37,619 bases of DNA from Oscillospiraceae bacterium (GTDB lineage: Bacteria > Bacillota_A > Clostridia > Oscillospirales > Oscillospiraceae): positions 1-37,619 of the forward strand of contig JAFVPA010000054.1 of NCBI GenBank assembly GCA_017505505.1, written 5' to 3'. A model generated the notes under the pieces. That model did not search any database and was not told the DNA's origin. It was given only the letters and a program-made list of their open reading frames with translations. The position numbers were made by a program, and so were the translations under genes. Shown here piece after piece: positions 10,703 through 32,168 of the stretch (the first letter of the stretch is position 1; each line of letters begins with the position of its first letter).

Positions 10703-10725
10703 GGGGATGTTCCTTTGCTGTTGGG

Positions 10726-10986
10726 TTAGGAATGGTCATTATAGCTTGTGGGGAGAGGTGTTTTGCCTCCGGAGATCTCTTCGGCGGCCTTGCGCATGGA
10801 GCGCAGGCAGGATTTTGTAGTGCTGATGGAAGTCAGTACACCCAATACACCGAAGACCAGAATGAGCCACATTCCCAGCTGAAACTTCTGCTGCAGCCAG
10901 ACGGCCAGGATCAGAAAGAATAGGGTAGGGAAAATGATGGAGAAACCAAACTGGCCGACCCACATCAACAGGTTCAATATCTTCAT
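10726..10986 (-). CDS. atpZ: AtpZ/AtpI-type small membrane protein, first gene of the atp operon
   Basis: An 86-residue protein with two hydrophobic segments (about 5-25 and 32-50) and a charged C-terminal tail. I chose the ATG at 10986 because CCGGAGG lies just upstream; an in-frame start 42 codons earlier would have to lie ahead of the promoter. Small two-helix proteins of this kind (pfam 'ATPase gene 1', AtpZ) often open clostridial atp operons and are thought to assist assembly or divalent-ion handling. The next gene follows after 23 bp. The specific name is by position and topology. Confidence 0.65.
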   Translation of the reverse strand: MKILNLLMWVGQFGFSIIFPTLFFLILAVWLQQKFQLGMWLILVFGVLGVLTSISTTKSCLRSMRKAAEEISGGKTPLPTSYNDHS

Positions 10987-11034
10987 AATTCCTCCGGGGA
11001 AAACGATTAAAAATGACCATAACAATTCCAAAAT

Positions 11035-11063
11035 ATTATACCGTAGATTTATGGAAGATGCAA
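11035..11063 (-). promoter_or_regulatory. Main sigma-A promoter of the ATP synthase operon
   Basis: On the minus strand: -35 TTGCAT, 17-bp spacer, perfect -10 TATAAT. It ends about 50 bp ahead of the atpZ start. A second possible -35 (TTGACA, 11107-11112) lies upstream with only a poor -10 (CAAAAT). Confidence 0.75.
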
Positions 11064-11175
11064 GGTTTACAAATTCACTAATTATTTTGCAATTTTTTGG
11101 AGAAGTTGTCAATAGGCAAAGGCTTTCATTTGTCTAATCTTTTCCAGTATCTTTGTAAAAGATTCGTGAAGGGGC

Positions 11176-11204
11176 TTTTCATTTGTGAGAAAATCATGTA
11201 AAAT
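11176..11204 (+). promoter_or_regulatory. Possible promoter for the recD2-comFC-mreB gene group
   Basis: TTTTCA, 17-bp spacer, TAAAAT, about 50 bp ahead of the ATG at 11254. It is the best plus-strand match in the gap between the divergent atp operon and this group, but neither hexamer is strong. Confidence 0.4.
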
Positions 11205-19403: not shown

Positions 19404-19775
19404 TCAGCAGGTCTGATAGGGGGGATCGCAGTCGTTCTGGCTGTCACAATTTCTGGGAGAAAACTCCTGGGCGGGGAAGGGGATGCGGCTGAACATCTCG
19501 CAGGGGTCCTCGCCGCCGCCGGGAGTCTCGCAGCATTCCTTGCAGGGAATGGCATAGTCCAGCACTGGCACTACCAGCTGTGCATCCCGTTCCAGACGAA
19601 CGATGGAGAACTGTCCTAACGTCACAAACAGCTGCCGCTGCCCACCGGAGATCACCAGCGGTTCATCAAACATCTGCCGGATGGCCTCCGGCACCTGAAT
19701 GCTGATATTGTCACAGCCGCAGTTATCCGGCTCCTTAATTTTGGAAGCCAACACCATGGGATCCAGGACCTCCAC
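19404..19775 (-). pseudogene. C-terminal half of a conserved protein split by the 11.6-kb insertion
   Basis: This frame codes for about 123 residues, including VEVLDPMVLASKIKEPDN, SIQVPEAIRQMFDEPLVI, LFVTLGQFSIVRLERDAQLV and a cysteine-rich end (IPCKECCETPGGGEDPCEMFSRIPFP). I remember this combination as the C-terminal half of a clostridial protein of roughly 270-300 residues with no firm function; the N-terminal half lies at 31344-31820. Both halves are on the minus strand in the right order. The codon for VE at the left border (GTGGAG) is the same codon phase as in the N-terminal half. An ATG at 19757 after GGAGG could give a 117-residue product, but the spacing looks accidental. Confidence 0.7.
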
Positions 19776-19792
19776 TATGGACACCAAATAGG
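19769..19792. repeat. Left junction of the island (attL-like)
   Basis: Direct repeat CCTCCAC (19769-19775), then TAT, then the 14-bp arm GGACACCAAATAGG (19779-19792). The same direct repeat and the reverse complement of the arm are found at the right junction (31343-31367). Counting the flanking bases, 17 of 18 bases match (CTRTGGACACCAAATAGG). Confidence 0.8.
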
Positions 19793-19830
19793 CAGGTAGA
19801 AAAGTTGGAGACTTTCCCCGATTGTCAAGA

Positions 19831-20640
19831 TCAATCAGAATATTCCGAACTCCAGAGTCGGTCTTCCAGCAGCGTTTCTTTTTTTGCGGTGTTTTCGCTG
19901 CTGCCTGATTCCAGCCAGGAAAGCAGCTTCGGGAGTTGGGCATCCCAATAATTCCATTCGTGGATCGCACCTTCTTCCCAGTTAGAGGTTATGGGAATAT
20001 TCCGTGAATCACAGAGTGAACAGAAGGTTTTATTTCCCTCTGCCAGGAAATCTTCAGTACCGCAGTAGTGGTATATTTCCGGTAACTCCATGGCATCGGA
20101 TAACAGTGACAGTAGGTTTTCTTCTTCGGGCACCTGGGTACCGCCGAAGCACAAAAGCCAGTCCCGGTGGAACATGGGGGCATTGCTGACCATCTGCTGG
20201 ATGTCCAACACGCCGGAAAGAAGGCCTACCTTGCTGAAACGCCCCGGTTCTTTCAGTGCAATCTTGCAGGCACCATAGGCACCCATGGAATTACCGGCAA
20301 TATAGCGGAATTTGGCATCCTGGGTGATGGGGAATACAGCTTCGCAAAATGCAGGAATCTCCTGACTGACATGGGTATAGTAGGCATCACCGTAAGCCAT
20401 ATCGCAGTAAAAGCTCCGGGCTGCGTTAGGCAGAACAATAGCTAGTTGCTGGGCATCGGCATAGCGTTCCAGGGATGTTCTTAACAGCCAGCTGTCGGCG
20501 CTGTCTGTTAAACCATGGAGCAGATATACCACGGGATACCGCTGAAGGTTTCCCTTCGCAGCGCCGGAGGGCAGCAAAACCGTAACCTGCGCGTCCCGGC
20601 CCAGACATTCCGAGAAAAACGTACAGTTCAGTTTAATCAT
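19831..20640 (-). CDS. Esterase D-family alpha/beta hydrolase (tributyrin/feruloyl-type esterase)
   Basis: Putative carboxylesterase, cytoplasmic since no signal peptide is seen. The 269 residues show the alpha/beta-hydrolase order: YPVVYLLHGL (36-44, oxyanion region), nucleophile S118 in GNSMGAYGA, acid D197 in CGTEDFLAE, and base H227 in AIHEWNYWDAQLP. This is the EstA/S-formylglutathione-hydrolase-like group. I chose the ATG at 20640 (MIKLNCTFF) with AGGAGGT 7 bases upstream rather than the GTG three codons earlier. It is the leftmost gene of the island and is divergent from the sugar importer, so it may deacetylate plant glycans or sugars; this is inference. Confidence 0.88.
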   Translation of the reverse strand: MIKLNCTFFSECLGRDAQVTVLLPSGAAKGNLQRYPVVYLLHGLTDSADSWLLRTSLERYADAQQLAIVLPNAARSFYCDMAYGDAYYTHVSQEIPAFCEAVFPITQDAKFRYIAGNSMGAYGACKIALKEPGRFSKVGLLSGVLDIQQMVSNAPMFHRDWLLCFGGTQVPEEENLLSLLSDAMELPEIYHYCGTEDFLAEGNKTFCSLCDSRNIPITSNWEEGAIHEWNYWDAQLPKLLSWLESGSSENTAKKETLLEDRLWSSEYSD

Positions 20641-20658
20641 ATTTTTCACCTCCTAGTT

Positions 20659-20687
20659 ATTGTATTGGATGGCATATCAATTGTCAA
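20659..20687 (-). promoter_or_regulatory. Sigma-A promoter of the esterase gene
   Basis: TTGACA, 17-bp spacer, TACAAT on the minus strand, ending about 18 bp ahead of the esterase start. A near-consensus promoter with a very short leader. Confidence 0.8.
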
Positions 20688-20756
20688 TCGCTTCCCCATG
20701 GCACAATCGCCAATTATGGTATATGTATTTTGGAGATTTGTCCGATTTTCAGCATT

Positions 20757-20772
20757 AATTAAACCTTTAATT
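20757..20772. promoter_or_regulatory. AATTAAA-CC-TTTAATT palindrome upstream of the sugar operon promoter
   Basis: Perfect 7-bp inverted repeat with a 2-bp centre, ending at the -35 of the importer operon. A possible activator or repressor site; AT-rich, so it could also be a chance UP-element-like sequence. Confidence 0.4.
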
Positions 20773-20799
20773 GACAAAAACGCCAAAAACGTGTTATAT
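20771..20799 (+). promoter_or_regulatory. Sigma-A promoter of the alpha-galactoside operon
   Basis: Perfect -35 TTGACA, 17-bp spacer, -10 TTATAT (TATATT is one base further). It lies 60 bp ahead of the binding-protein start. Confidence 0.8.
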
Positions 20800-20810
20800 T
20801 TAATAGGTAA

Positions 20811-20820
20811 ATCGTACGAT
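20811..20820. promoter_or_regulatory. Operator-like palindrome ATCGTACGAT
   Basis: Perfect 10-bp palindrome located just below the -10, around +6 to +15 of the expected transcript. The position fits a repressor site (LacI- or other sugar-responsive type). No regulator gene lies in this window. Confidence 0.45.
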
Positions 20821-20858
20821 ATTTTTATGGATTTACAAAAAAATTAGGAGGAAATATA

Positions 20859-22130
20859 ATGAAAAAGTTAGTAGCACTGCTGCTGGCCATGGCTATGGTT
20901 TTTGCCCTGGCTGCCTGCGGCAACTCCGGCGCTTCTAAGAAAGAAGTCCTGGAAACCCATGCTCCCGAAGATGTAACTCTGTCTGTTTGGGTCAGCGGCG
21001 CCGGCGCTCAGGTTGAGGCCATGCAGGCTGCCGTGAAGGCTTTCGAAGCAGAAACCGGCTATACCGTCGAGTTCTCCGCCCCCGGCGAATCCTATGAGGA
21101 ACTGATGAAGACCAAGATGGCTGCAAATGATATGCCCGATGTCTTCGACACTCATGGCTGGTCCGCTACCCGTTACGCTGACTATCTGATGCCCACCAAC
21201 GAGATGTCCTTCGCTTCCCGTCTGGATCCCCAGATCACTTCCGTTATCACTGCTGCTGACGGCAATATGTATGTTCTGCCCTTCGATGTGGATATCACCG
21301 GCATGGTCTACAATGTGGATGTCTGTGAGGAAGCAGGTGTCAATGTTGACGAGATCAAGACTTGGGCTGACTTTGAAGCAGCCTGTGAGAAGGTTAAGGC
21401 CATCGGCAAGATTCCTGTCCATATGGGCGGCGCCAACAACTTTACCGTTGGCTGGTTCTATGACCGTGTTGCTCCTTCCTACTACCTGACCGATCCCAAC
21501 AACAACCAGATCGAGAACCTGCGCAGCGGTAAGTTCGACGAGTCCCTGTGGGTGGAAATCTCCACCATGCTGGATTCTTGGGTTACCAAGGGTTACCTGA
21601 ATGCTGACTGTGTCTCCGGTGAATATACCGCTGACGTGGCAGCCCTTGCTACCAACGAGGCTGCATTCCTGTTCTACGGCAACATCGCCGTTACCCTGGG
21701 CCTTGGCATTAACCCCGAAGCAAACCTGGGCATGATGCCCCTGCCCGCAAAGACCGCTTCCGATGAGACATCCCTGATTGCTGGTGAAAACGTGGCTCTG
21801 GGTGTTTGGAATGAGTCCAGCTATAAGGCTGAGGCCATCCAGCTGCTGGAGTACCTGGCTCAGCCCGAGGTCGCCAAGACCATCGCTGCTGCTACCGGCA
21901 ACAAGTCTGCTCTGACCGATGTGGAACTGGATCTGGGCGCAATCCAGACCTATCTGGACAAGCATGCCAACGTTAAGACCTTCCCCTACTTCGACCGTGA
22001 CTATCTGCCCAGCGGTCTGTGGGATGTGCTGTGTGCTACCGGTCAGGAAGTCCTGGCTCAGAAACCCGGTGCAATTGAAAATGCTGCTGCACAGGTCAAG
22101 ACAACCTTCGACGAGAAGTTCGGTGGCTGA
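20859..22130 (+). CDS. Sugar ABC transporter substrate-binding lipoprotein (alpha-galactoside type)
   Basis: Extracellular binding protein of the CUT1 family (MsmE/RafE-like). The 423 residues begin with a lipoprotein signal peptide ending LAAC, with the lipidated cysteine at residue 20. The mature part has the family pattern (LSVWVSG near 42, MKTKMAANDMPDVFDTHGW, LPFDVDITGMVYNVD, a WADFEAACEKVKAIGKIPVHMGG motif). AGGAGG sits 7 bases before the ATG. It is the first gene of the operon; the next hairpin probably makes this gene the most abundant product. The GH36 gene downstream points to raffinose, melibiose or stachyose as ligand. Confidence 0.9.
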   Translation: MKKLVALLLAMAMVFALAACGNSGASKKEVLETHAPEDVTLSVWVSGAGAQVEAMQAAVKAFEAETGYTVEFSAPGESYEELMKTKMAANDMPDVFDTHGWSATRYADYLMPTNEMSFASRLDPQITSVITAADGNMYVLPFDVDITGMVYNVDVCEEAGVNVDEIKTWADFEAACEKVKAIGKIPVHMGGANNFTVGWFYDRVAPSYYLTDPNNNQIENLRSGKFDESLWVEISTMLDSWVTKGYLNADCVSGEYTADVAALATNEAAFLFYGNIAVTLGLGINPEANLGMMPLPAKTASDETSLIAGENVALGVWNESSYKAEAIQLLEYLAQPEVAKTIAAATGNKSALTDVELDLGAIQTYLDKHANVKTFPYFDRDYLPSGLWDVLCATGQEVLAQKPGAIENAAAQVKTTFDEKFGG

Positions 22131-22184
22131 TACGACTCTGTTCTCAAAACAGCCCGGTTCCAATAGCAAGATCCAATAAGACAT

Positions 22185-22212
22185 GGACAGGGACAATAAA
22201 GCGTCCCTGTCC
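22185..22212 (+). terminator. Attenuating hairpin between binding protein and permease genes
   Basis: Perfect 10-bp stem GGACAGGGAC / GTCCCTGTCC with an 8-base loop, followed by TGTTTTGC. Such partial terminators are common after binding-protein genes and would reduce permease transcription. The rest of the 141-bp gap holds nothing else I can name. Confidence 0.7.
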
Positions 22213-22271
22213 TGTTTTGCTTATTATGAAAGAGTCGGCACAGCATGGCTGTACCGATCGGAGGTGTAACA

Positions 22272-23141
22272 ATGCACAAACGGAATAGAAGCATCAATCT
22301 TTTCTATGTCCCGGCACTGATCCTGTTTGTGATTTTCGTGGTGTATCCCTTCACCAAGGGTATTTTCCTGTCTTTCACAAATTGGAACGGTTATTCCAAG
22401 TCCTATAAAATGGTGGGTATCGACAACTATATCCGGATGCTGTCCGATCCCAATGTCCGCACCGCCATTGTCAATACTTTGATTTATGGCGCGGGATCTA
22501 CTCTGATCCAGAACGTTTTGGGCCTGTTCCTGGCACTGCTGCTGAACTCCAAGTTCTACGGCCGTTCCGTACTGCGTACCGTGGTGTACCTGCCTGTTAT
22601 GATTGCTCCCTTGATCATGGGCTACATCATGTACTTCTTCTTCACCTTCAATAATGGTGCCATCAACGACATTCTTGCGCTGTTCGGCAAGGCTCCTGTT
22701 GACTGGCTGGCTGACGGTAAACGGGCTGTGGTGATTTTAACAATCGTAAACTCCCTGCAGTTTGTGGGCATTTCCATGGTTCTGTACCTTGCAGGTCTGC
22801 AGAATATCTCTTCCATGTACTATGATGCAGCTGCCATTGATGGTGTCAATGCTGTTCAGAAGTTCCTGTATGTTACTGTGCCTCTGCTGATGCCTTCCGT
22901 TACCTCTTCCGTGACCATCAACCTGATCGGTGGTCTGAAGCTGTTTGACGTGATTTCTGCGCTGACCGGCGGCGGTCCCGGCTATGATACTAACTCCATG
23001 TCTACTCTGATCCACCGTCTGTACTTCGGCAGTGAGCGTGCAGGCTACGCTTCCGCAGTGGGCCTGGTATTCTTCGTGTTCATTATGATTGTTAGTAACT
23101 TTGTTGTCAATGCATTGCAGAGAAAGCAGGTGGAGATGTGA
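22272..23141 (+). CDS. ABC sugar transporter permease, first (MalF/MsmF-like)
   Basis: Membrane component of the importer, 289 residues with six hydrophobic helices. The cytoplasmic EAA-type loop is YYDAAAIDGVNAVQKFLYVTVPLLMP (about residues 187-212), which docks onto the ATPase. I chose the ATG at 22272 (MHKRNRSINLFYVP) because GGAGGTG lies 5 bases upstream; an in-frame ATG at 22245 has no such site. It overlaps the next permease start by 4 bp (GTGA). Confidence 0.92.
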   Translation: MHKRNRSINLFYVPALILFVIFVVYPFTKGIFLSFTNWNGYSKSYKMVGIDNYIRMLSDPNVRTAIVNTLIYGAGSTLIQNVLGLFLALLLNSKFYGRSVLRTVVYLPVMIAPLIMGYIMYFFFTFNNGAINDILALFGKAPVDWLADGKRAVVILTIVNSLQFVGISMVLYLAGLQNISSMYYDAAAIDGVNAVQKFLYVTVPLLMPSVTSSVTINLIGGLKLFDVISALTGGGPGYDTNSMSTLIHRLYFGSERAGYASAVGLVFFVFIMIVSNFVVNALQRKQVEM

Positions 23142-23962
23142 AAAACAAGACTTTACGCAATACTCTTTTGCTATCCCCGCTGCTGCTGGCCATTATGGCG
23201 GTTTATCTGTCTCCTTTCTACATTACTACCGCCATTGCCTTCAAGAATCCTACTGACCAGAGTTCTTATTGGAAATTCCCCGCCAATCCTACCTGGGAAA
23301 ACTTCGCAACGGCTATCCAGAATGCGGGTATCGTGGAATCTCTGGGCCGAACTGCCATTATCACCTTCTTCGTGCTGGTGATCTGCGTTATTACCAGTGC
23401 GTTGGGTGCCTATCCTCTGGCAAGACGCCAGACAAAGGTCAACAAGGGAATCCAGGCTTTTGTCCTGGGTGTTATGATGGTTCCTCCTCTGAGTATTCTG
23501 GTGCCCCTGTACTCCATCATTGTCAGTATGGGCGGTGTCAATCAGTACTGGGCTATCATCCTGGTTATGACTACCTATCAGCTTCCCCAGGCTATGTTCC
23601 TGTACATCAACTTTATCAATGCCATTCCTGTGGCACTGGACGAAGCAGCCACCATCGATGGCTGTGGCCCCATGCGGACATTCTTCCATATTATTATGCC
23701 TCAGCTGAAACCCGTTACCGCTTCTGTCATTATTCTGGCCTGCATGAACTGCTGGAATGACTATCAGTTCTCCCGCTACATCCTGCAGTCTACCGATATG
23801 AATACCGTGACACTGTCCATTTCCTCCTTCTTCTCTCAGACCTACAGCAACCTCTATGCCGCATCCGCCTCTGCTCTGCTGGCAGTTCTGCCTGTGGTTA
23901 TCGTCTTCCTGTTCCTGCAGAAGTACTTTGTCCAGGGCATGATTGACAGCGCCGTCAAATAA
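23138..23962 (+). CDS. ABC sugar transporter permease, second (MalG/MsmG-like)
   Basis: Second membrane component, 274 residues, six helices, GTG start overlapping the preceding stop. The EAA loop is VALDEAATIDGCGPMRTFFHIIMPQLKP (about 168-195). No ATP-binding gene follows, so the pair probably works with a shared ATPase of the MsmK/UgpC type encoded elsewhere, as is usual for CUT1 transporters of Firmicutes. The GH36 gene starts 16 bp later. Confidence 0.92.
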   Translation: MKNKTLRNTLLLSPLLLAIMAVYLSPFYITTAIAFKNPTDQSSYWKFPANPTWENFATAIQNAGIVESLGRTAIITFFVLVICVITSALGAYPLARRQTKVNKGIQAFVLGVMMVPPLSILVPLYSIIVSMGGVNQYWAIILVMTTYQLPQAMFLYINFINAIPVALDEAATIDGCGPMRTFFHIIMPQLKPVTASVIILACMNCWNDYQFSRYILQSTDMNTVTLSISSFFSQTYSNLYAASASALLAVLPVVIVFLFLQKYFVQGMIDSAVK

Positions 23963-23978
23963 GAAAAGGAGTGCTTTT

Positions 23979-26183
23979 ATGGACCTGATTACCCTGCATA
24001 CAAAAAATACCACCTACCAGATGGGTGTTAACGAGAATGGCTTCCTGCTGCACCTGTATTATGGTCCCCGGACGGAAGGCGATATGAGCAATCTGCTGAC
24101 CTATTTCTTCCGCTGCGGCCATGGCAACCCCTATGACCGGGGCACCGACCGTCTGTTCTCCTGTGACTTTGCACCCCAGGAATATTCCTGCTATGGTTCC
24201 GGTGACTACAGAAACCATGCTTTCCGTGTTCGCAGTGCAGACGGCACAGCCGGTGCTGATCTGCGTTACAAGTCTCACAGCATTACCGATGGCAAGTATA
24301 CTATCCCCGGTCTGCCTGCATCCTATGGCGATGCCAAGACCTGCGAGGTGGTTCTGGAAGATCCCCGTCTGGCTTTGGAAGTGGTTCTGAAGTATGGTAT
24401 CTTCTATGAAGAGAATATCATCACCAGAAGTGTGGAAGTTCGGAACAACGGCAGCGATGCTTTGTACCTGAATAAGGTTATGAGTGCTTCCTTCGACTTT
24501 GTTACCGGCCAGTATGACCTGATCCACTTCTATGGCCGTCATTTCAATGAAATGAATTTCGAGCGCACCTTTGTGGGCCATGAGGCAATCTCTATCGGCA
24601 GCCGCCGTGGTGTTTCCGGCCATCAGCATAATCCCTTTGCCATTCTGTGTGACCGGGATGCCGGTGAGGAGCATGGTTCCTGCTATGGCATGAGCCTGAT
24701 GTTCAGCGGCAACTATGTAATCCAGGCAGAACAGGACCAGTACAGCCAGACCCGGTTCCAGGCTGGTATCTCCGACGAGATGCTGGATTACCGGCTCCTG
24801 TCCGGTGAGAAGTTCTATGCTCCTGAAGTCATCATGACCTATTCTTCCGAGGGCTTGGGCAAGCTTTCCCGGAACTACCACCGTTTCATCCGCCATAATG
24901 TCTGCCGGGGTAAGTATAAGCTCCAGCGCCGTCCCATCCTGGTCAATAACTGGGAAGCTACCTATTTCAGCTTTACCGGCGATAAGCTGCTGGAAATCTG
25001 TGACGAGGCAGCGAAGCTGGGTATCGAAATGTTTGTTCTGGACGACGGCTGGTTTGGTAACCGCGGCTGTCTGCAGCCCGGTGAGGCAAGCTTCGGCGAT
25101 GACAGAGGTCTGGGTGACTGGGTTGTTAACGAAGAAAAGATGGGCGGCCCCATCAAGAACATTGTTGACAAGGTCAATGCAAAGGGCCTGAAATTTGGTC
25201 TGTGGATCGAGCCGGAAATGGTTAATGAGGACAGTAATCTCTACAGAACTCATCCCGACTGGGCACTGAAGATCCCCGGTAAGCCCCCTGTTCTGGGCCG
25301 CTCCCAGCTGGTGCTGGACTTTACCCGGGATGAAGTGGTGCAGAATATCTTTGATCAGATAACTGCAGTGGTGGATACTGCGAATATTGAGTACATCAAG
25401 ATGGACATGAACCGCAGCATCTGCGAGGCCTATTCTGCAGCAGCCGGTCATCAGAACTTCGGTGAGATCACTTATAAGTATGTCCTGGGCGTCTATAAGT
25501 TCCTGGATATGCTGATGGAGCGGTATCCCGATATGCTCATCGAGGGCTGCAGCAGCGGTGGCGCCCGTTATGATGCCGGTATGATGTACTATACGCCTCA
25601 AATCTGGACCAGCGACAACTCTGATGCCATCGAGCGTCTGAATATCCAGTGCAGCGCTTCCTACGGCTATCCTGTTTCCGTTGTTGGTTCCCATGTTTCC
25701 GCAGTGCCTAACCATCAGAATCATCGGATCACCGATATTGATACCCGCGGCGTGGTTGCCATGTCCGGCAACTTTGGTTATGAGCTGGATCTGACAAAGC
25801 TCAGCCAGGAAGACAAGGATAAGATCAAGGAGCAGATCGTCCGCTTCAAAGCAGACTGGGATATCATTCATAACGGTGATTACTACCGCGTTACTCCCGG
25901 CGGAGAGAACCGGGAGTATGTAGCATGGAATATGGTTTCCACCGATAAGAAGCAGGCTCTGCTGAATCTGGTCACCACCAATACCCATGGTAATCCTTTG
26001 GCCATCTACGGTAAACTCAAAGGACTGGAGCCCAACACCATGTATCGCTGTGTGGAAACCGGCGCTGTGTTCAGCGGCACAGAACTGATGTACATCGGTA
26101 TGCCCATTGCTACAACCCAGGAAGAATTTGACACCCTTACTGAGTATGTTGCCTTCCAGCGCCATTTCCTGGCACAGGAATAA
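23979..26183 (+). CDS. aga: GH36 alpha-galactosidase
   Basis: Hydrolyses terminal alpha-1,6-galactose from raffinose-family sugars and melibiose by a retaining mechanism, probably in the cytoplasm since no signal peptide is seen. The 734-residue length matches AgaA of Geobacillus. Catalytic residues: nucleophile D476 in YIKMDMNR, acid/base D546 in IWTSDNSDAIERL. Other signatures: FVLDDGWFGNR, GLWIEPEMVNEDSNLYRTHPDW and GCSSGGARYDAGM. I chose the ATG at 23979 (AAAAGGAGTG upstream) over the earlier in-frame ATG at 23943, which lies inside the permease gene. Confidence 0.95.
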   Translation: MDLITLHTKNTTYQMGVNENGFLLHLYYGPRTEGDMSNLLTYFFRCGHGNPYDRGTDRLFSCDFAPQEYSCYGSGDYRNHAFRVRSADGTAGADLRYKSHSITDGKYTIPGLPASYGDAKTCEVVLEDPRLALEVVLKYGIFYEENIITRSVEVRNNGSDALYLNKVMSASFDFVTGQYDLIHFYGRHFNEMNFERTFVGHEAISIGSRRGVSGHQHNPFAILCDRDAGEEHGSCYGMSLMFSGNYVIQAEQDQYSQTRFQAGISDEMLDYRLLSGEKFYAPEVIMTYSSEGLGKLSRNYHRFIRHNVCRGKYKLQRRPILVNNWEATYFSFTGDKLLEICDEAAKLGIEMFVLDDGWFGNRGCLQPGEASFGDDRGLGDWVVNEEKMGGPIKNIVDKVNAKGLKFGLWIEPEMVNEDSNLYRTHPDWALKIPGKPPVLGRSQLVLDFTRDEVVQNIFDQITAVVDTANIEYIKMDMNRSICEAYSAAAGHQNFGEITYKYVLGVYKFLDMLMERYPDMLIEGCSSGGARYDAGMMYYTPQIWTSDNSDAIERLNIQCSASYGYPVSVVGSHVSAVPNHQNHRITDIDTRGVVAMSGNFGYELDLTKLSQEDKDKIKEQIVRFKADWDIIHNGDYYRVTPGGENREYVAWNMVSTDKKQALLNLVTTNTHGNPLAIYGKLKGLEPNTMYRCVETGAVFSGTELMYIGMPIATTQEEFDTLTEYVAFQRHFLAQE

Positions 26184-26212
26184 CAGGAACATATCCGAAA
26201 CAGAATGAAGAA

Positions 26213-26242
26213 CGGCAGGATCTCAACAATGGGATCCTGCCG
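26213..26242 (+). terminator. Terminator of the alpha-galactoside operon
   Basis: Perfect 10-bp stem CGGCAGGATC / GATCCTGCCG with a 10-base loop, followed by TGTTTTGTT. It begins 30 bp after the GH36 stop. Confidence 0.85.
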
Positions 26243-26384
26243 TGTTTTGTTGGTATAGGTGAAATATAGTGACCATTCGTGTGGACTGCCCTGTGTGTAT
26301 GATGATTTCTTTGGCACTGCGAAAAAGGTGATGACTGAAGAATAGCGGGCAAGAAAGTTTCTGGAAGGATAATCTGACACAAAT

Positions 26385-26418
26385 GAATCCTCCACTTTCA
26401 GGAGAAAGCGGGGGATTC
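26385..26418 (-). terminator. Possible terminator after the serine recombinase
   Basis: A 15-bp stem with two mismatches (arms 26385-26399 and 26404-26418, loop AGGA), 31 bp beyond the recombinase stop. The following ATTTG is weak as a U-run. The rest of 26243-26449 holds no gene I can support. Confidence 0.45.
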
Positions 26419-26449
26419 TGCTCCCTAAAGAAAAGAAAGCAGGTAAAAA

Positions 26450-27961
26450 TTATGTGTGCTCCAGATCCTCAAACTTCTTCAGTACAATCCGAACATTACC
26501 ATCCCGATTCACGGAAATGTGATCTATCACACGGTGCATATCGGTATTGGTGACGGTATCCAGTTCCAGCAATCTGAGGATTTCCTCGGTATAGCGGCGA
26601 ATTACCTGCTCAGCATTATTGAGGATTCTGGCAGACTGCTCGATCTGCTCCAGATCCATATCCACAGCTTTCAGCTCTTCCAGGATGGCAGGAAGCTTGT
26701 TTTTTAGTTCTGGCAGGGTGATCAAATTATTGGCATACATTTCCTGGTAGCGGTCCTTTTTGGAAAGGAGCTTTTTTCTTTTCTGCTCAATATCCCGTTT
26801 GGTTTGGGCGGGAGTATCCGTTTTGGGGATCTTCTGCTCCAGACTGGCCAGGACGCTGTCAATGAAGGCTTCTTTGTCAGCAATCAGAGAAGTGAAGTAT
26901 TGCTTCAGCTCCCGGATCAGATCCGGCTCGTTGAGGACAACGTTGTTGTCGCAGCGCATGGCAGTATACTGATCATTGGTAACGCAACGCCAGTAAACCC
27001 TGGTGTTTACATAGGTATAGGTCTTTCTGGTGAAGGAGCGACCACAATGCTCACATTTTATGAGCGTAGAAAATACGTGCTTACTACTGTAGCGGGCTTC
27101 CCGGAAAGGCTCACCGGAGTCATATTTGATCCTGCGGGAAGCCATAATTTTCTGTGCCTTTTCAAAGACTTCCGGAGAAACAATGGCCCATTCCGGGCGG
27201 TCATGTTGAAACTGCTCTTCTACAGGAACGTTGACCTGTTTACCTGTAAGGAAATCCTCAATCTCGTATTTGTGATTGATAAGTGTACCCCTGTAAATGG
27301 GATTCACAAGAATTCTGCGTACTCCCCGGGCGTTCCAGTCATTGCCATACTTGGTCTTGTCCCCATCGCGGTTCAGTGTGAGGCTGATGGTACGGCAGCC
27401 CAAGCCTTGTTCGTTGTATAGAGCAAAGATTTTACGGACAATTCTGCTCTCCTCTGGGTTGATGGCAAGCGTGAAGTTGTCGATTCGGTCATAGCCAAAA
27501 AGCTTTTGGGGTACCCGCCCTTTCTCTGCGTTCAATCGCTTCCCAAATTTTGTACGCTTACTCAAATTGGCTGATTCCTCTTGGGCCATGGCGGAGAAAA
27601 GGGTGAGGATGAACTCAGAATCCCCCATGGAATCCATATTGGCATTGAGGAAAATCACATTGATCCCAATGGCCTTCAGTTCACGGATACTGACCAAAAA
27701 ATCTACAGTATTTCTTGCAAGTCTGCTGATGTCCTTAACCACAACAGTCTGAAAAAAACCACAACGGGCATCCCGCATAAGCCGGTTGAACGCATCCCGC
27801 CGTTTCAGGGAAGTTCCGGTGATGCCTTCATCTGCATATAGCCGGAATAACTCATGTCCGTTGCGTTTGGCATACTCGATAAAAAACTCTTTCTGATGAG
27901 CCAGGCTACTTAGCTGTTCGTCTTTGTCCGTACTGACCCGGCAGTAGGCAGCAACCTTCAT
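26450..27961 (-). CDS. Large serine recombinase (integrase/excisionase family)
   Basis: Site-specific recombinase that cuts and rejoins DNA through a serine. The 503 residues have the resolvase catalytic domain (1-150) with nucleophile S10 in YCRVSTDKDEQ, the recombinase domain (about 160-290), a zinc ribbon with C303, C306, C326 and C337, and a C-terminal coiled-coil region (about 345-440). I chose the ATG at 27961 since AAAGGAG lies upstream; the frame is open further but without a ribosome binding site. It is the only recombinase in the island and the natural candidate for its integration and excision. Placement in the middle of the island is unusual. Confidence 0.93.
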   Translation of the reverse strand: MKVAAYCRVSTDKDEQLSSLAHQKEFFIEYAKRNGHELFRLYADEGITGTSLKRRDAFNRLMRDARCGFFQTVVVKDISRLARNTVDFLVSIRELKAIGINVIFLNANMDSMGDSEFILTLFSAMAQEESANLSKRTKFGKRLNAEKGRVPQKLFGYDRIDNFTLAINPEESRIVRKIFALYNEQGLGCRTISLTLNRDGDKTKYGNDWNARGVRRILVNPIYRGTLINHKYEIEDFLTGKQVNVPVEEQFQHDRPEWAIVSPEVFEKAQKIMASRRIKYDSGEPFREARYSSKHVFSTLIKCEHCGRSFTRKTYTYVNTRVYWRCVTNDQYTAMRCDNNVVLNEPDLIRELKQYFTSLIADKEAFIDSVLASLEQKIPKTDTPAQTKRDIEQKRKKLLSKKDRYQEMYANNLITLPELKNKLPAILEELKAVDMDLEQIEQSARILNNAEQVIRRYTEEILRLLELDTVTNTDMHRVIDHISVNRDGNVRIVLKKFEDLEHT

Positions 27962-27991
27962 TCTTTTTGTCTCCTTTCGTTCGAATATATG

Positions 27992-28023
27992 AAAAAAGAG
28001 GCAGGAGATTATACTCCCGCCTC
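27992..28023 (-). terminator. Terminator between the 46-residue ORF and the recombinase
   Basis: Stem GAGGCGGGAG / CTCCTGCCTC with one G-U pair and a 6-base loop, followed on the minus strand by TTTTTTC. It lies after the small gene and before the recombinase start, so recombinase expression from the upstream promoter would need read-through. Confidence 0.75.
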
Positions 28024-28037
28024 CTTGGTATGGATGA

Positions 28038-28178
28038 TTAACCTGCAGCGGGTAAATGCTCCGGATAAGCAAACTCTGCCAGAAGCTTATCGAGCAGGAT
28101 TTTCTTCAGTGCTGACTCGAAGGCAGCAGGAGAGTTGGGGTTTATAAAGGTATAAGTTAAGGATGGTGATTTCTTCAT
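28038..28178 (-). CDS. 46-residue protein encoded upstream of the serine recombinase
   Basis: Very short protein (MKKSPSLTYTFINPNSPAAF..., 46 residues) with a conserved-looking N-terminus and a helical C-terminal half (LKKILLDKLLAEF). AAGGAGG lies 8 bases ahead of the ATG at 28178, which I prefer to an earlier in-frame ATG. I recall similar small proteins next to clostridial recombinases but no known function. It could be a recombination directionality factor, since these are small and sit next to the integrase gene, but no sequence signature supports that. Confidence 0.6.
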   Translation of the reverse strand: MKKSPSLTYTFINPNSPAAFESALKKILLDKLLAEFAYPEHLPAAG

Positions 28179-28220
28179 GGTGCATACCTCCTTCTCAAGA
28201 TAGTGTATTAGCTGCACCAC

Positions 28221-28540
28221 AAATTCATGTGGGAATGGGCTAATGATTTTTCATGGTTTTATATTCAGGGGGCTGCGGTAGAATTTGGGGAAGAATCTCC
28301 CTTCGCCTGAAAAATTAATTCGATAAAGGAAGTGGTACGAATTGTTTTTGGTTTGGCACCATGATATGCGGAACTGCGAGATAATTCTATTGATTTGAGC
28401 GACCAATGCTATCAAATATTCGGTTTGGTTATATGGATCTTTCGGAAACAATAGAATAATTCAAACATGTGATGTATTTTCAGAATAATCAGGGTTTTGC
28501 GCCGGTTGAGAGAATAATTGGCAGTTAATGTACACAAGAA
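28221..28540. other. Gene-free stretch between the small ORF and the EutH-like gene
   Basis: About 320 bp, AT-richer than its surroundings, without a supported gene. A minus-strand open frame at 28251-28451 lacks a ribosome binding site and family features. The minus-strand -10-like TACACT near 28205 may serve the 46-residue gene. GAATAAT recurs several times (28453, 28482, 28513 regions); I see no recognisable insertion ends. Confidence 0.5.
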
Positions 28541-28578
28541 CTCAAAAGAAACCGCAGCCAAATCATGGCTGCGGTTTC
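28541..28578 (-). terminator. Terminator overlapping the end of the EutH-like gene
   Basis: Perfect 13-bp stem (GAAACCGCAGCCA / TGGCTGCGGTTTC, loop AATCA) followed on the minus strand by TTTTGAG. The stop codon of the permease gene lies in the loop region, so the last codons form part of the hairpin. Confidence 0.8.
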
Positions 28579-29639
28579 TCGTTTCTTGTTAGTATCAGAG
28601 CTAGAATGACTCCTGTAATTCCTCCTAGCAGCTTTGCTGTGATCATAGCTGTCACCAGTTCCGGCTCTGTGCTGATGGTGAACCCCAGATGGGCTGCAAA
28701 CAGGGAAGCACTGCTGACTACAAAGGCTCCGCAGACTACTTTGCCGCGTTTATCCATCCTGGGAATCATGGCCAGGGCAGGGACAACACTGACCATACCG
28801 ATGAGAAGCCCTGTGGTGCTGACGCTGTTCAGGCCGGTATGCTTGCCGATCCAGGCAAAAGGCTTTTTCAGCAACCTCTGAAGAAGTTCGGCAAGAGGCA
28901 TACTGCCCAGCATGACAATGGCAATGGAACAGACCACTTCCATGGCATCTGTCAGTGCATCCATGCCAGGGATCCATGCTCTTCCGGTCATGTACTGGAG
29001 GGCACCGAGCATCAGTCCGAAAATGGCCAGTTTTTCAATACCCTTTGCGAAATACTGAAAGCCTAGGATCAGCGATTCCGGTCGTTTCAGCAGACCGACA
29101 ATGAGAAGGAAAGACTCCAGAAGAATGGGAAGCAGATTCCACAGCAATGGTACTAAAGACAGGTTACAGAGCAATCCTCCGGCTATCAGCCCAACCGGCA
29201 TGGCAATCAGACCGAACAGGATTCCTTTTGTAAAATAAGGCCTGTCTTCAGCACCTACGGCACCCAACCCCACGGGAATGGTAAACACAATGGTACATCC
29301 GAAGATGGCGGATACAATAATGCCTGCATACCGTCCGATACCAGGATCTTTGCACAGATCCATGGCCATCTGATAGCCGCCCATATCGATAGCCAGAATG
29401 CTACCGAACATACCGGGATCCAGTCTCATCAGTCCAAAGAGGGGAACAATGATTTTCCCAAGCCAATGGGACAGTACCGGTGCCAGACAGATGATCCCAG
29501 CCATAGACAATGCGATAGATCCCAGAAGATGAAAGGCTTCCTCAAATCTCTCTCCAAAACCAAAACGATTTCCAAGCAGATGGTCCAGTCCTCCTGTGAG
29601 GGCACCAATTGCCATAATATTTAAAATAATCTGACTCAT
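28563..29639 (-). CDS. eutH: EutH-like ethanolamine permease
   Basis: Integral membrane protein, 358 residues, about ten hydrophobic segments, with the EutH-like features LDHLLGNRFGFGERFEEAFHLLG near the N-terminus, LFGLMRLDPGMFGSILAIDMGGYQMA (about 68-93) and PRMDKRGKVVCGAFVVSSASLFAAHLGF near the C-terminus. EutH moves ethanolamine into the cell. No other eut gene lies in the window, so the substrate here is uncertain; a stand-alone copy may supply a remote pathway or another small amine. GGAGATAT precedes the ATG. It has its own promoter and terminator inside the island. Confidence 0.88.
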   Translation of the reverse strand: MSQIILNIMAIGALTGGLDHLLGNRFGFGERFEEAFHLLGSIALSMAGIICLAPVLSHWLGKIIVPLFGLMRLDPGMFGSILAIDMGGYQMAMDLCKDPGIGRYAGIIVSAIFGCTIVFTIPVGLGAVGAEDRPYFTKGILFGLIAMPVGLIAGGLLCNLSLVPLLWNLLPILLESFLLIVGLLKRPESLILGFQYFAKGIEKLAIFGLMLGALQYMTGRAWIPGMDALTDAMEVVCSIAIVMLGSMPLAELLQRLLKKPFAWIGKHTGLNSVSTTGLLIGMVSVVPALAMIPRMDKRGKVVCGAFVVSSASLFAAHLGFTISTEPELVTAMITAKLLGGITGVILALILTRNEKPQP

Positions 29640-29671
29640 ATTTGATATCTCCGGTTATGAAAGCTGCAGAT

Positions 29672-29700
29672 ATTATAAATACTGCTTCCAGCAAAGTCAA
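29672..29700 (-). promoter_or_regulatory. Sigma-A promoter of the EutH-like gene
   Basis: Minus strand: TTGACT, 17-bp spacer, perfect TATAAT, about 33 bp ahead of the start codon. Confidence 0.8.
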
Positions 29701-29711
29701 TCCACATAAAA

Positions 29712-29742
29712 ACAGACTCTTTCCCAATTGAAAAGAGTCTGT
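29712..29742 (-). terminator. Terminator after the HipA-like gene
   Basis: Stem ACAGACTCTTT / AAAGAGTCTGT with a 9-base loop, followed on the minus strand by TTTTTATG; it starts 6 bases after the HipA-like stop codon. Confidence 0.85.
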
Positions 29743-29748
29743 AAAACA

Positions 29749-30879
29749 CTATGCTAGGGCGGATTCCAATTCCCTCAAACGAAGGAAGAACATTTGACGC
29801 CAGCCTTCCATATCACCAAAGATATCTGGATCGATTTCCTGCTTCATTCTCAAACCAATAGCCTTCACAGCCTCAATGGCAGCTTCCCGTTGGGTCAGTT
29901 TTCTGGGATATGTGGTCTGACAGTTGGCACCGTCAAGAGTATCGTAGGTTTGGAAGCTCATATTGAAATCCATAAGAGGATAGAGGGAAACAGGCTGGTT
30001 TGTTTCGTTGTCAATGAGGAATCCCCAGTTCTCCGGGTGGCGATCTGTGTTTCCAATCAGATAATCCAGAATGTTCATGCCATAGTAAGTGACAGGATCC
30101 AGTCGGAGGCATTCTTCGATGGTATCCAAATCGTTGTTGATGGCATAGATATCAAAGGCCATCTTGGAGACTATAGACTGCTTTGCGGAGGTAATGATTC
30201 TGCTCTTGCTGACAGGTTCTCCATCATATTGATGTGCTTCGTAAGTTACCTGCGGAATATCGAAACACTGACAAATTTTGCTGGCCAGCAGCTCCCTCTG
30301 AACTACTTCTGCGCTCCCATCCTTTAGCAGATAAAAGCCGTCTTCTGTTCGGATCCAGGCTTTTGGGAAGCATCCCTTAGTGGACAGGTCAGGGGCCAGC
30401 TCTCTATTGGTGACAGTCAGATGCTTTCCCTTCAGGGGAAGGGGGACAATGGCATCGTTGAGGGGGTGTTCATAAAGATTCAGTTCTGCAAATGTAACAT
30501 TTTCTCCGGACTGTCTGACCCAGTACACATCGTTCAGAGAAACACAGTGGTAGGAAAGCGAAATCTGCGCACGATCTCGGTCGGTAACTGCCTGGGAAAC
30601 ACCGAGACTGTTCATGATCTCCTTGGCATAAGTTCTGTCCAAAGATAGAACCCGGGAAGCACACCAGTAATAGAACACATTGAGATTATTGATCAGAACA
30701 TCAAAATCATTGTCCTCTTCCAAATATAGGCTGTAGGGCATAAACTGCGCATTGGATACTTTAGCCTGTCCCATCGTGGAGACAGTGGCAACGACAGTTT
30801 CCTTGTGCAGGATCTCATAGGTGATGATCGTTCTGGAGGTATGAAATTGTAAAGAAGCATTGCTTGATTGCTGGTCCAT
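29749..30879 (-). CDS. HipA-like kinase domain protein
   Basis: Cytoplasmic serine/threonine kinase-fold protein. HipA proteins phosphorylate cell targets and can cause growth arrest. The 376 residues show the C-terminal kinase motifs: likely ATP lysine K186 in FYLLKDG, catalytic loop IGNTDRHPENWGF (D279, N284) and metal motif LMDFNMSF (D304). The ATG at 30879 has AAGAGATGAT upstream; a longer frame lacks support. No HipB-type helix-turn-helix antitoxin gene is adjacent, which is unlike classic hipBA modules. It lies near the right end of the island and has its own promoter. Confidence 0.85.
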   Translation of the reverse strand: MDQQSSNASLQFHTSRTIITYEILHKETVVATVSTMGQAKVSNAQFMPYSLYLEEDNDFDVLINNLNVFYYWCASRVLSLDRTYAKEIMNSLGVSQAVTDRDRAQISLSYHCVSLNDVYWVRQSGENVTFAELNLYEHPLNDAIVPLPLKGKHLTVTNRELAPDLSTKGCFPKAWIRTEDGFYLLKDGSAEVVQRELLASKICQCFDIPQVTYEAHQYDGEPVSKSRIITSAKQSIVSKMAFDIYAINNDLDTIEECLRLDPVTYYGMNILDYLIGNTDRHPENWGFLIDNETNQPVSLYPLMDFNMSFQTYDTLDGANCQTTYPRKLTQREAAIEAVKAIGLRMKQEIDPDIFGDMEGWRQMFFLRLRELESALA

Positions 30880-30913
30880 GGGATCATCTCTTCTTTCAAG
30901 TAGTGTTACCGCT

Positions 30914-30942
30914 ATTCTAGCATGGAAAAAAGCGAATTTCAA
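30914..30942 (-). promoter_or_regulatory. Sigma-A promoter of the HipA-like gene
   Basis: Minus strand: TTGAAA, 17-bp spacer, TAGAAT, ending about 35 bp ahead of the start. Confidence 0.7.
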
Positions 30943-30986
30943 GGGAATCTACCTAAAGGCCTCCATAGTATGATGGTAATAAATGT

Positions 30987-31015
30987 TTGCCGAAATGCAG
31001 TGTTGGCAATATACT
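30987..31015 (+). promoter_or_regulatory. Promoter for the zinc-ribbon protein gene
   Basis: Plus strand: TTGCCG, 17-bp spacer, TATACT. It lies about 60 bp ahead of the proposed start at 31075. Confidence 0.6.
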
Positions 31016-31074
31016 GATAGGTAATAGACAGGGAAAACCAATGCTATATTAGGAAATATAAGGAAGATGCAGGA

Positions 31075-31287
31075 TTGGAACAGGAGGTAGAAGTAATCAA
31101 TACAGAACGATATAGCTATTGCATGGAGCAATGTAAAAAATGTGGAGACATTATTGAATCTGCTTATATACATGATTTCGAAACTTGCTCCTGCGGTTAC
31201 TGTTCAGTTGACGGCGGACATTACTACCTTAAGCGATGGGCAAAGTCTCTGGATGATTTTATCGATTTGAGTGAATTTCGGGAATAA
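31075..31287 (+). CDS. Small zinc-ribbon protein (DUF7695-like)
   Basis: A protein of about 70 residues with CKKCGDIIES (two Cys), HDFETCSCGYCSVDGG (further Cys and His) and a charged C-terminal end LDDFIDLSEFRE. The 'QCKKCGDIIES...CSCG...VDGGHYYLKR' order matches a small zinc-binding family of unknown role seen in Firmicutes and in mobile elements. The start is unclear: a TTG at 31075 has AGGA upstream, while the frame is open back to 31021 without a good start. The gene ends 25 bp before the island's terminator. Function unknown. Confidence 0.65.
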   Translation: MEQEVEVINTERYSYCMEQCKKCGDIIESAYIHDFETCSCGYCSVDGGHYYLKRWAKSLDDFIDLSEFRE

Positions 31288-31312
31288 TCAGAATCATTGA
31301 TAACATAGCAAA

Positions 31313-31340
31313 AGCCGGATGCATTCATACGCATCCGGCT
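31313..31340 (-). terminator. Terminator just inside the island's right end
   Basis: Perfect 10-bp stem AGCCGGATGC / GCATCCGGCT with an 8-base loop, followed on the minus strand by TTTTGC. It starts 3 bases after the stop codon of the N-terminal half gene, so the island supplies both stop codon and terminator to the gene it interrupts. Confidence 0.8.
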
Positions 31341-31342
31341 TA

Positions 31343-31367
31343 CCTATTTGGTGTCCACAGCCTCCAC
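31343..31367. repeat. Right junction of the island (attR-like)
   Basis: Arm CCTATTTGGTGTCC (31343-31356), ACAG, then the direct repeat CCTCCAC (31361-31367). The arm is the exact reverse complement of the left arm at 19779-19792. TAG, the stop codon of the N-terminal half, lies inside the arm. Confidence 0.8.
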
Positions 31368-31820
31368 CACAGCAGTGGGAAGATTTGCGAAGAGGGTAGA
31401 AGGACCGTCATAGGTGCCCAGGCGGGTATCGCTGCGGTAGATGTGGGCCCGGCTGTCTTCGCCGCAGAGGACGGCCCGTTTGGTAAATACGGCTAAGCCG
31501 TACAGCGTAGTGGGGCGGGTGCTGCCCACGATGGCATCGGCCAGGACACGGTAGTAGAAGGTCAGGTCGATGCAGTAATGGTTGCGGTCAAAGGCTACGG
31601 GCTCTACATCTATATATGTAGTGATGAGCTCTGCATTGCGGACCCGGGCGCTGCCGGCGGTGTCCAGCGTGGACTGGGAACCGGTGGTCAGGTAAACCCG
31701 CAGGTCTTCGATGCAGTCTTTGTCCCGACAGGAGTCGGTGATCTTCCGGGTATGAATGGACATGCACTGCTTCAGGTCATTGATATCGCAGCGCAAAGCG
31801 TCCGTTTTTTGCTCTGACAT
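31344..31820 (-). pseudogene. N-terminal half of a conserved protein split by the 11.6-kb insertion
   Basis: Frame of 158 residues from the ATG at 31820 (GGGAGGTA upstream) to a TAG that lies inside the island's end. The sequence has IHTRKITDSCRDKDCIEDLRVYLTT, IDVEPVAFDRNHYCIDLTFYYRVLADAIVG and LYGLAVFTKRAVLCGE, which I remember as the N-terminal part of a clostridial protein of about 270-300 residues whose C-terminal part is like 19404-19775 here. Five residues (AVDTK) at the end come from the island. Function of the family is not known to me; a spore-surface link has crossed my mind but is unsupported. It may be translated as a truncated product. Confidence 0.72.
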
Positions 31821-32168
31821 GGAAATACCTCCCGAATTAGAAGATAAGCGTGATGCTTATAGGACAGTTTATGCGCAAGGACCGGGGAAGTGCATAAAAA
31901 GCCCGCAGGGAGTGGCTTCGGACACAGAATATAGGGTGGCTGCATTGGGGCAAAACGCCGAAAGTTTTTTCGGTAAAAATTCCCGGTTTGATTTTCCGGG
32001 ATGAAAGCTGTCGGATTATGTAAAGAAGGGTTAGAGAAATTTCGGAAGCATTGGGCCCCTGTTTTCCAACATTGGGATAGGAAAGTCCGGGAAAAGCCAA
32101 CTTTCTGATGAAGCAGGCAGGGGAGAAAGAGAAAAGAAAAAAGAAAACTTTTCTGCCAGGAAAACTGT
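31821..32168. promoter_or_regulatory. Intergenic region between split gene and nrdD; possible sigma-K-like site
   Basis: No gene is supported in this 348-bp stretch. On the minus strand, AC, 16 bp, CATAAACT (31866-31891) resembles the sigma-K form AC-N16/17-CATAnnnT and would serve the N-terminal half gene. The motif is short and could be chance. A hairpin ATAAGC/GCTTAT overlaps 31853-31869, upstream of that gene's ribosome binding site. Confidence 0.3.

Follow-up and report, generated by a model that had tools for sequence, protein, structure and literature searches.

A putative skin/gin-like element with metabolic cargo splits a probable sporulation gene in gut Oscillospiraceae

In heterocysts, a terminal cell type, the large serine recombinase (LSR) XisF cuts the fdxN element out of a gene, and the staphylococcal cassette chromosome (SCC) elements combine an LSR (CcrA/B/C) with interchangeable cargo cassettes at one chromosomal site. 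Here, an island of 11.6 kb is described that interrupts a conserved, probably sporulation-related gene on a stretch of 37,619 nucleotides (Oscillospiraceae bacterium, assembly GCA_017505505.1, contig JAFVPA010000054.1), which is referred to as the window in the following.

Several elements that interrupt sporulation genes have been described. The gin element in gerE of Bacillus cereus ATCC10987 comprises 28.6 kb and three recombinases, among them the LSR GirC, which is accompanied by the small factor GirX (PMC5595907, where features of SCC are also given). In B. subtilis and Clostridioides difficile, excision of skin from sigK by an LSR rejoins this mother-cell gene, and in C. difficile the small directionality factor CD1234 (72 amino acids) is under the control of SigE and SpoIIID (PMC5025042). 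As of November 2023, the yin element of C. botulinum was reported to be confined to a single strain (PMC10747680). Altogether, the published developmentally timed excisions that we found amount to a handful, occur in Bacillus and Clostridium strains, and mostly concern prophage-like elements.

The split gene and the ends of the island

The interrupted gene encodes 274 residues on the minus strand and is cut after codon 153, with 11,592 bp between its halves. The halves, the island ends, and a hairpin behind the 5' half are located as follows:

31344..31820, minus strand: 5' (N-terminal) half; gene sequence as far as the core at about 31361, followed by an in-frame stop from the att arm (..AVDTK*)
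19404..19775, minus strand: 3' (C-terminal) half, matched by full-length homologues
19769..19792, no strand: left end, CCTCCAC core repeat and inverted-repeat arm TGGACACCAAATAGG
31343..31367, no strand: right end, 15-bp inverted-repeat arm CCTATTTGGTGTCCA and CCTCCAC core repeat
31315..31338, minus strand: terminator-like hairpin immediately behind the 5' half, CCGGATGC..GCATCCGG followed by CTTTTGC (by eye)

The removal of positions 19776-31367 in silico resulted in an open frame of 274 residues that passes through TAVVEVLDPMV, exactly as an earlier note on this DNA had proposed, with GTGGTGGAG joined to GTCCTGGAT at the predicted empty junction. In a protein search, the joined product had 5679 matches (E ≤ 1e-3), and it aligned end to end with intact single proteins; the best among the 120 of 5679 matches listed showed 85% identity at 100% coverage. 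This confirms that two halves of one protein are separated by the island. The gene was uninterrupted in 71 of the 80 genome loci fetched with the joined gene. The closest of these to the window by the split gene, L001 of an uncultured Oscillospiraceae metagenome-assembled genome (MAG), contains an intact gene (85% identical) at the predicted empty site, with a divergent nrdD upstream and SPFH genes downstream, and thus represents the empty site anticipated by the note. The uninterrupted gene is also present at L049, which belongs to a Pseudoflavonifractor sp. Among intact loci with enough room on the respective side, nrdD was located upstream in 35 of 68, SPFH genes downstream in 9 of 63, and both in 6 of 60. 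The G+C content of the island is 0.485 vs 0.547 outside. As a separate observation, a homologue of the split gene with one in-frame TGA was detected in G061 (C4:59880-60635).

Both copies of CCTCCAC and both 14-bp arms were found where the earlier note had placed them, except that the perfect inverted repeat (TGGACACCAAATAGG) is 15 bp long. Arms of at least 14 bp did not occur by chance in 1000 shuffles of the end windows (0/1000), whereas a direct match of at least 7 bp arose in 231/1000, so the direct repeat is weak on its own. At the joint of the predicted circle, the arms form a palindrome (16/20 positions matched) with the centre TC (GA on the gene strand) within the 7-bp direct repeat; the empty site is without such symmetry (6/15 positions). 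This layout is that of attP as described for serine recombinases (PMC5595907). Judged by their sequence, the island ends are LSR att sites. Similar arms (CAAATAGG / CCTATTTGG and variants) were present in related elements; the string AATAG was found in 10/20 of the 5' ends and CCTA in 15/22 of the 3' ends, counts that also cover ends from other LSR types as well as a masked one. Among 16 readable 5' halves of elements with a full-length LSR, 15 receive an in-frame stop from the att arm no more than six codons on, the exception being G075 with no stop within six codons (both by eye). The island therefore displays the anatomy of a gene-intervening element: it encodes an LSR, it is bounded by a short direct repeat and inverted-repeat arms, and the gene can be restored in frame.

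Recombinase, cargo, and recurrence of the split

The recombinase of the island is preceded by a small open reading frame (ORF):

26450..27961, minus strand: LSR of 503 amino acids with Resolvase, Recombinase, and zinc-ribbon domains
28038..28178, minus strand: ORF of 46 amino acids, '..YTFINPN..LKKILLDKLL' type, candidate recombination directionality factor, also seen ahead of the other full-length LSRs examined in this clade

In a sample of 400 genomes of one family, 15 of the 323 gene-bearing genomes contained the gene split near residue 153. These were recovered by re-querying 27 genomes, namely the 26 with two gene matches and G096; the others were split near residue 48 (two), had single frames with inserted residues (seven), or were unclear (G028, G043, and G250). 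Among the 15, the halves of G066 lie on two contigs, G096 has the 3' half only, and the exact split point of G148 could not be read owing to masked bases at the 5' junction. The second split place near residue 48 was seen at L153 (G367) and L167 (G225); in G367, about 6.5 kb with another LSR type are inserted there. Outside the sample, the gene is split near codon 153 in L072, L073, L076, L078, L079, L080, and L081, of which L080 and L081 contain the 3' half only.

The recombinases link these splits. Nine of the 80 fetched loci are not intact; two of them, L075 and L077, are contigs of one MAG. In the genomes of the other seven (L071, L072, L073, L076, L078, L079, and L080), an LSR 61-75% identical to that of the window adjoins a half, and on the viral contig L081 a 57%-identical LSR adjoins the 3' half. 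An LSR search of the 400 genomes (E ≤ 1e-130) found 18, of which those of G002 (= L071) and ten others adjoin a half of the split gene and seven are located elsewhere. All 11 sample genomes with an LSR of at least 46% identity to that of the window, a limit set after the result had been seen, have this LSR beside a half of the split gene. Together with the matching att arms, this strongly supports the proposal of the earlier note that the recombinase inserted the island. The remaining four of the 15 splits contain either a shortened LSR (G148 and G066, 51-52% identical) or LSRs of about 25% identity (G239 and G189), which indicates that different LSR lineages reached one place.

In the phylogenetic tree, one branch (80/73; 81% of 200 bootstrap trees) sets apart the 21 LSRs of the codon-153 site; seven other LSRs are their neighbours (100/99 for both sets together), and the LSR of the window pairs with that of G006 (84/96). 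For G239, the tree and the selection analysis used the best match, a second LSR within the island; its position and values are thus uninformative on the LSR that abuts the 3' half. The sister clade (about 45% identical) splits the sporulation gene spoIIID in 7/7 cases (L111-L117; G362, G024, G285, G346, G191, G063, and G152). With the SpoIIID model, residues ~34-79 were detected behind the LSR in all seven genomes and residues ~3-41 elsewhere in six, four times on the same contig (about 9 to 35 kb away) and twice on another, while no 5' part was found in G285. Three comparison genomes have a whole SpoIIID; the fragments score below the curated cut-off, as does one of these three whole copies. 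Among the papers listed in a literature search, none dealt with such a split of spoIIID. The spoIIID splits fit recombinases that live in mother-cell genes.

Apparent breaks were also seen in two other sporulation genes. dpaA seems to lie in pieces in G402 C12 (L225; three pieces), G316 C10 (L228, L229), and G038 C17/C19 (L230, L231); LSRs were found close to the pieces in G402 and in G316, but not in G038. In G316 C13 (L226, L227), spoIVA appears to be split by about 46 kb (model positions 2-405 and 399-492), with an LSR near the 3' part.

A small ORF (approximately 35-51 amino acids) of the kind '(Y)TF.(N/D)PN...L..IL..KL' precedes all 19 full-length LSRs of the clade that were examined (18 called by pattern, G075 by eye), and a similar one precedes five of the seven spoIIID-type LSRs (by pattern). 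It was not found before the two LSRs that have no zinc-ribbon part (domain loss checked with Pfam for G148). Known directionality factors act with full-length LSRs (PMC5025042, PMC5595907), which makes this distribution suggestive, and the small ORF is a candidate recombination directionality factor.

The cargo of the window island comprises the following genes:

19831..20649, minus strand: putative esterase (PF00756; Pfam)
20859..22130, plus strand: extracellular solute-binding protein of a probable sugar ATP-binding cassette (ABC) transporter (Pfam and a further profile search)
22245..23141, plus strand: ABC permease (Pfam)
23138..23962, plus strand: ABC permease (Pfam)
23976..26183, plus strand: alpha-galactosidase GH36 (start chosen at 23976; ORF listed from TTG at 23943)
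28563..29639, minus strand: EutH-family protein (Pfam)
29749..30882, minus strand: HipA/PI3-4-kinase-like protein (weak, below Pfam cut-offs)
31075..31287, plus strand: DUF7695 protein (Pfam)

Among the ten ORFs of the island, Pfam identified neither conjugation genes nor phage structural or replication genes (PHROGs not run), and the island was accordingly assigned neither to the integrative conjugative elements (ICEs) nor to the prophages. Other islands at the site carry different cargo. That of G006, whose LSR is 75% identical to that of the window, spans about 59 kb with ParA, ParB, T2SSE, and TraG-like domains; G211, G154, and G075 share about 3.7 kb with a glucosamine-6-phosphate isomerase and a nagA-like gene (by eye); and the L072 group carries about 5.5 kb with a sigma-70-type gene. 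In L072, the latter (10464-11192; Sigma70_r2, with r4_2 just below the cut-off) is followed by an apparent membrane partner. L150 (G148) and L151 (G066) contain arginine-synthesis-like genes inside the split gene (two by Pfam, the rest by eye); their LSR stops after the Recombinase domain (about 290 amino acids), has no small ORF, and is still constrained, with a ratio of nonsynonymous to synonymous substitution rates (dN/dS) of 0.11. At L148 (G239) and L149 (G189), the recombinase that adjoins the 3' half at this position belongs to another LSR subfamily (about 25% identical), a case of convergent targeting.

Selection and promoters

A collinear island of about 5.5 kb is shared by L072, L078, L079, and L080, which represent four species-level genomes; its similarity is about that of its flanks (three genomes compared window by window). 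In this lineage, dN/dS was 0.03-0.09 for the 5' half (three pairs; L080 was left out, having no 5' half in the fetched locus), 0.014-0.12 for the 3' half (six pairs), and 0.10-0.15 for the LSR (six pairs). The synonymous divergence (dS) was 0.33-0.47 for the LSR vs 0.09-0.26 for the halves, which we take as weaker constraint on the LSR codons, with element exchange remaining as the alternative. The halves around the collinear islands of G211, G154, and G075 showed a dN/dS of 0.019-0.075 (three pairs each) at a dS of 0.56-0.95. No internal stop was present in the halves of six split loci (L080: 3' half only) and seven further split genomes. Since dN/dS is low in both halves after the insertion, the gene is not dead, and in the four-species lineage both halves and the LSR are, by these ratios, under purifying selection.

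Three elements are located upstream of the gene and of the small ORF:

31865..31894, minus strand: SigK-type promoter of the split gene, GCAC-N16-CATAAACT
31844..31863, minus strand: conserved inverted repeat (CCTATAAGC..GCTTAT) immediately downstream of the -10 box
28202..28230, minus strand: SigE-type promoter of the small ORF and LSR, ACAT-N17-AATACACT, which misses the strict pattern

In B. subtilis, SigK and SigE promoters share the -10 box and differ by one base in the -35 box, C for SigK and T for SigE (PMC517825); in C. difficile, the -35 box contains AC for SigK and ATA for SigE (PMC3789822). The pattern AC-N15-18-CATANNNT was present upstream of the gene in 73/73 loci, compared with 20/609 control upstream regions and 47/1460 shuffles, most commonly in the form GCAC-N16-CATAAACT; a SigE-like pattern was found in 4/73. 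Eight of the 73 loci, the window and seven others, are interrupted or break off at the site. The inverted repeat after the -10 box occurred in 60/73 loci (2/609 controls) and is possibly a hairpin of the 5' leader.

Upstream of the small ORF, the situation is reversed. The pattern [CAT]AT-N16-18-[CA]ATANNNT was detected in 14 of 16 elements (54/1719 controls), with L081 and G293 missing it and with GCAT or TCAT as the -35 box in 10/16 (by eye), and neither a SigK-type (0/16) nor a SigA-type pattern (0/16) was found there. These 16 are taken from the 19 elements with a full-length LSR after G007, G008, and G009 had been dropped as near copies of G003. Among control genes from the same genomes, dpaA showed a SigK-type promoter in 5/7 upstream regions (-10 box with C or A) and spoIVA in 0/26, where a SigE-type promoter was found in 19/26 with a widened pattern. 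The tentative assignment of the split gene to sporulation is based on the SigK-type promoter at every one of the 73 loci and on SpoIVA, which was found in 26/26 chosen genomes; the gene belongs to no annotated family.

Interpretation and comparison with known elements

What the sequences support is a site-specific insertion by an LSR clade into a gene that can be restored in frame, with a known empty site, att anatomy, and constraint after insertion. Beyond this, we consider it probable that the island is a skin/gin-like gene-intervening element that is excised in the mother cell after SigE has become active, with SigK expressing the rejoined gene and the cargo as a passenger. As the att anatomy, the empty site, and the association of LSR and site indicate, an LSR integrated a circular metabolic element (attP x attB) close to codon 153 into a conserved gene, probably one expressed late in the mother cell during sporulation. 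In sporulating cells, SigE would drive transcription of both the small ORF and the LSR in the mother cell; with the small protein as directionality factor, recombination of attL and attR would remove the island and rejoin the gene in frame, whereupon SigK would drive the full-length protein. As SigE precedes SigK, the rejoined gene would be ready just in time. The forespore would retain the island including its cargo, so that the germ line loses nothing; the sugar genes would be passengers, presumably for vegetative growth. The suggestion of the earlier note that the recombinase may also remove the island gains indirect support from selection, the SigE/SigK-type promoters, the spoIIID splits, and an assembly fork described below, although removal was not seen. 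Its idea of a sugar-use island acting as a gene switch has to be turned round: the recombinase and its att sites would form the switch, with the sugar genes as one interchangeable cargo among several.

The fork occurs in the goat-cecum MAG G005. The 5' half lies on contig L075, which breaks off two bases beyond codon 153; the terminal 141 nt of L075 are identical to the initial 141 nt of L077, a contig of the same MAG that continues into the 3' half. Contigs that overlap at their ends by exactly one k-mer length are the trace of a fork left by a de Bruijn assembler, and we take 141 to be the final k used here. The fork at the core hints at a mixture of empty and occupied chromosomes, caused by strain difference or by excision.

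Several observations weigh against the main interpretation. Neither the occupied branch nor the LSR (E ≤ 1e-60) was found in G005, for which reason the fork is a hint only, and it could be explained by strain difference. No excised junction, circle, or transcript was seen, and nearly all material consists of MAGs. For the split gene, neither a Pfam or NCBIfam family nor a usable fold match was obtained, which leaves the promoter as the basis of its presumed sporulation role; the search of the 400 sample genomes did not detect the gene in 77, and among the matches listed there was no intact allele nearer than 85% (window) or 89% (L072). The promoter patterns had been seen before they were counted on the same sequences, which makes the counts supportive rather than independent tests. 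The SigK-type count covers the 73 loci, with the 5' halves of the splits in the family sample outside it. The strict SigE form was found in 12/16 elements, failing in the window (ACAT), G006, L081, and G293; spoIVA reached 19/26 only after widening, from 5/26 with the first, narrower form, and the widened pattern matches 115 or 295 of 1684 controls. The skin recombinase of C. difficile is under SigA control (PMC5025042). Finally, the halves of G148/G066 are constrained (0.083 and 0.145) although their LSR has no zinc-ribbon part, and those of G239/G189, with the other LSR type, are less constrained (0.295 and 0.188).

The alternative that survives best, though we regard it as unlikely, is stochastic or transfer-linked excision in the manner of ICEs or yin, by which the gene would be rejoined in a subpopulation free of sporulation control. 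The ICE-like relative of 59 kb at the same site with its 75%-identical LSR is in line with this, the fork in G005 would fit, and yin was excised at all time points tested (PMC10747680). It is opposed by the SigE-type promoter before the small ORF and LSR, by the choice of a SigK-type gene and spoIIID as targets, and by the inheritance of the islands across several species. Quite improbable in our view is that an ordinary mobile island inactivated a dispensable gene whose halves are now decaying. LSR elements do insert into genes, no copy of the gene was found in 77 of the 400 sample genomes, and excision was not directly seen; but the halves are free of internal stops, two lineages that inherited their islands show a dN/dS far below 1 since the insertion, the SigK-type promoter is retained in the eight split or site-ending loci, and the LSR itself is constrained. 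That the halves function as two polypeptides from an unexcised locus, the first ending at the att-arm stop (as in nearly all readable elements) and the second starting at an internal ATG behind GGAGG in the window, is very improbable despite the conservation of the halves next to the shortened LSR of G148/G066, as it leaves the constraint on the LSR unexplained, the 5' transcript of the window appears to be terminated at the hairpin, and the AlphaFold model of an intact homologue forms one beta region with strands from both halves and the split point inside strand 149-154, which speaks modestly against two separate proteins (mean pLDDT 71.5).

Extending the reading as a mother-cell excision element, we give about even chances to the view that a clade of LSR elements in gut Oscillospiraceae is specialised on mother-cell genes (the split gene and spoIIID) as landing pads for interchangeable cassettes, named here as alpha-galactoside use, amino-sugar use, arginine synthesis, and ICE cargo. 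These elements would be shed under SigE timing while the germ line keeps the cassette, and would have become domesticated and inherited over several species. If this is true, SigE induces the small factor and the recombinase, late spore genes are assembled just before SigK needs them, and genome editing confined to the soma is routine. A single position in one gene is split repeatedly in gut spore-formers that are mostly uncultured, with metabolic cassettes and an ICE-like element in place of phages, which offers natural replicates for testing how mobile elements join a developmental programme. The locus also supplies a candidate new family of directionality factors and a pointer to an element clade that splits spoIIID, a mother-cell regulator, and sporulation genes that look 'broken' in gut MAGs may be functional. 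New with respect to the known elements are the metabolic cassettes as cargo and the repeated use of one gene.

Compared with the described systems, the window LSR has XisF as its best NCBIfam hit, yet it is not a member (125.4 bits vs a cut-off of 375). It resembles SCC in combining an LSR with interchangeable cargo at one site, but it scores far below the Ccr cut-offs (66.8-123.9 bits vs 700-900), and its target lies inside a gene, at mid-length, that has a SigK-type promoter. With yin in yabG of C. botulinum (PMC10747680) and SPbeta in spsM (PMC4191935) it has the insertion into a sporulation gene (here a probable one), the LSR, the att repeats, and a candidate or known directionality factor in common, whereas these two are prophages or prophage-like. 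The skin element differs in being prophage-like, in its target sigK, in the SigA-driven CD1231 (PMC5025042) as opposed to the SigE-type promoter of the LSR operon here, and in its factor, the candidate here (46-51 amino acids) being called a different type by description rather than by a similarity test. From gin, the island is distinguished by another host gene and clade, by metabolic cassettes, and by one LSR clade occurring in many genomes, with excision predicted here; gin shows sporulation-phase expression (PMC5595907), and its counterpart in the window consists of SigE/SigK-type promoters only. Like gin (PMC5595907), it is a non-phage element in a probable mother-cell sporulation gene, equipped with an LSR and a small candidate factor, with a short direct repeat inside an inverted-repeat att site.

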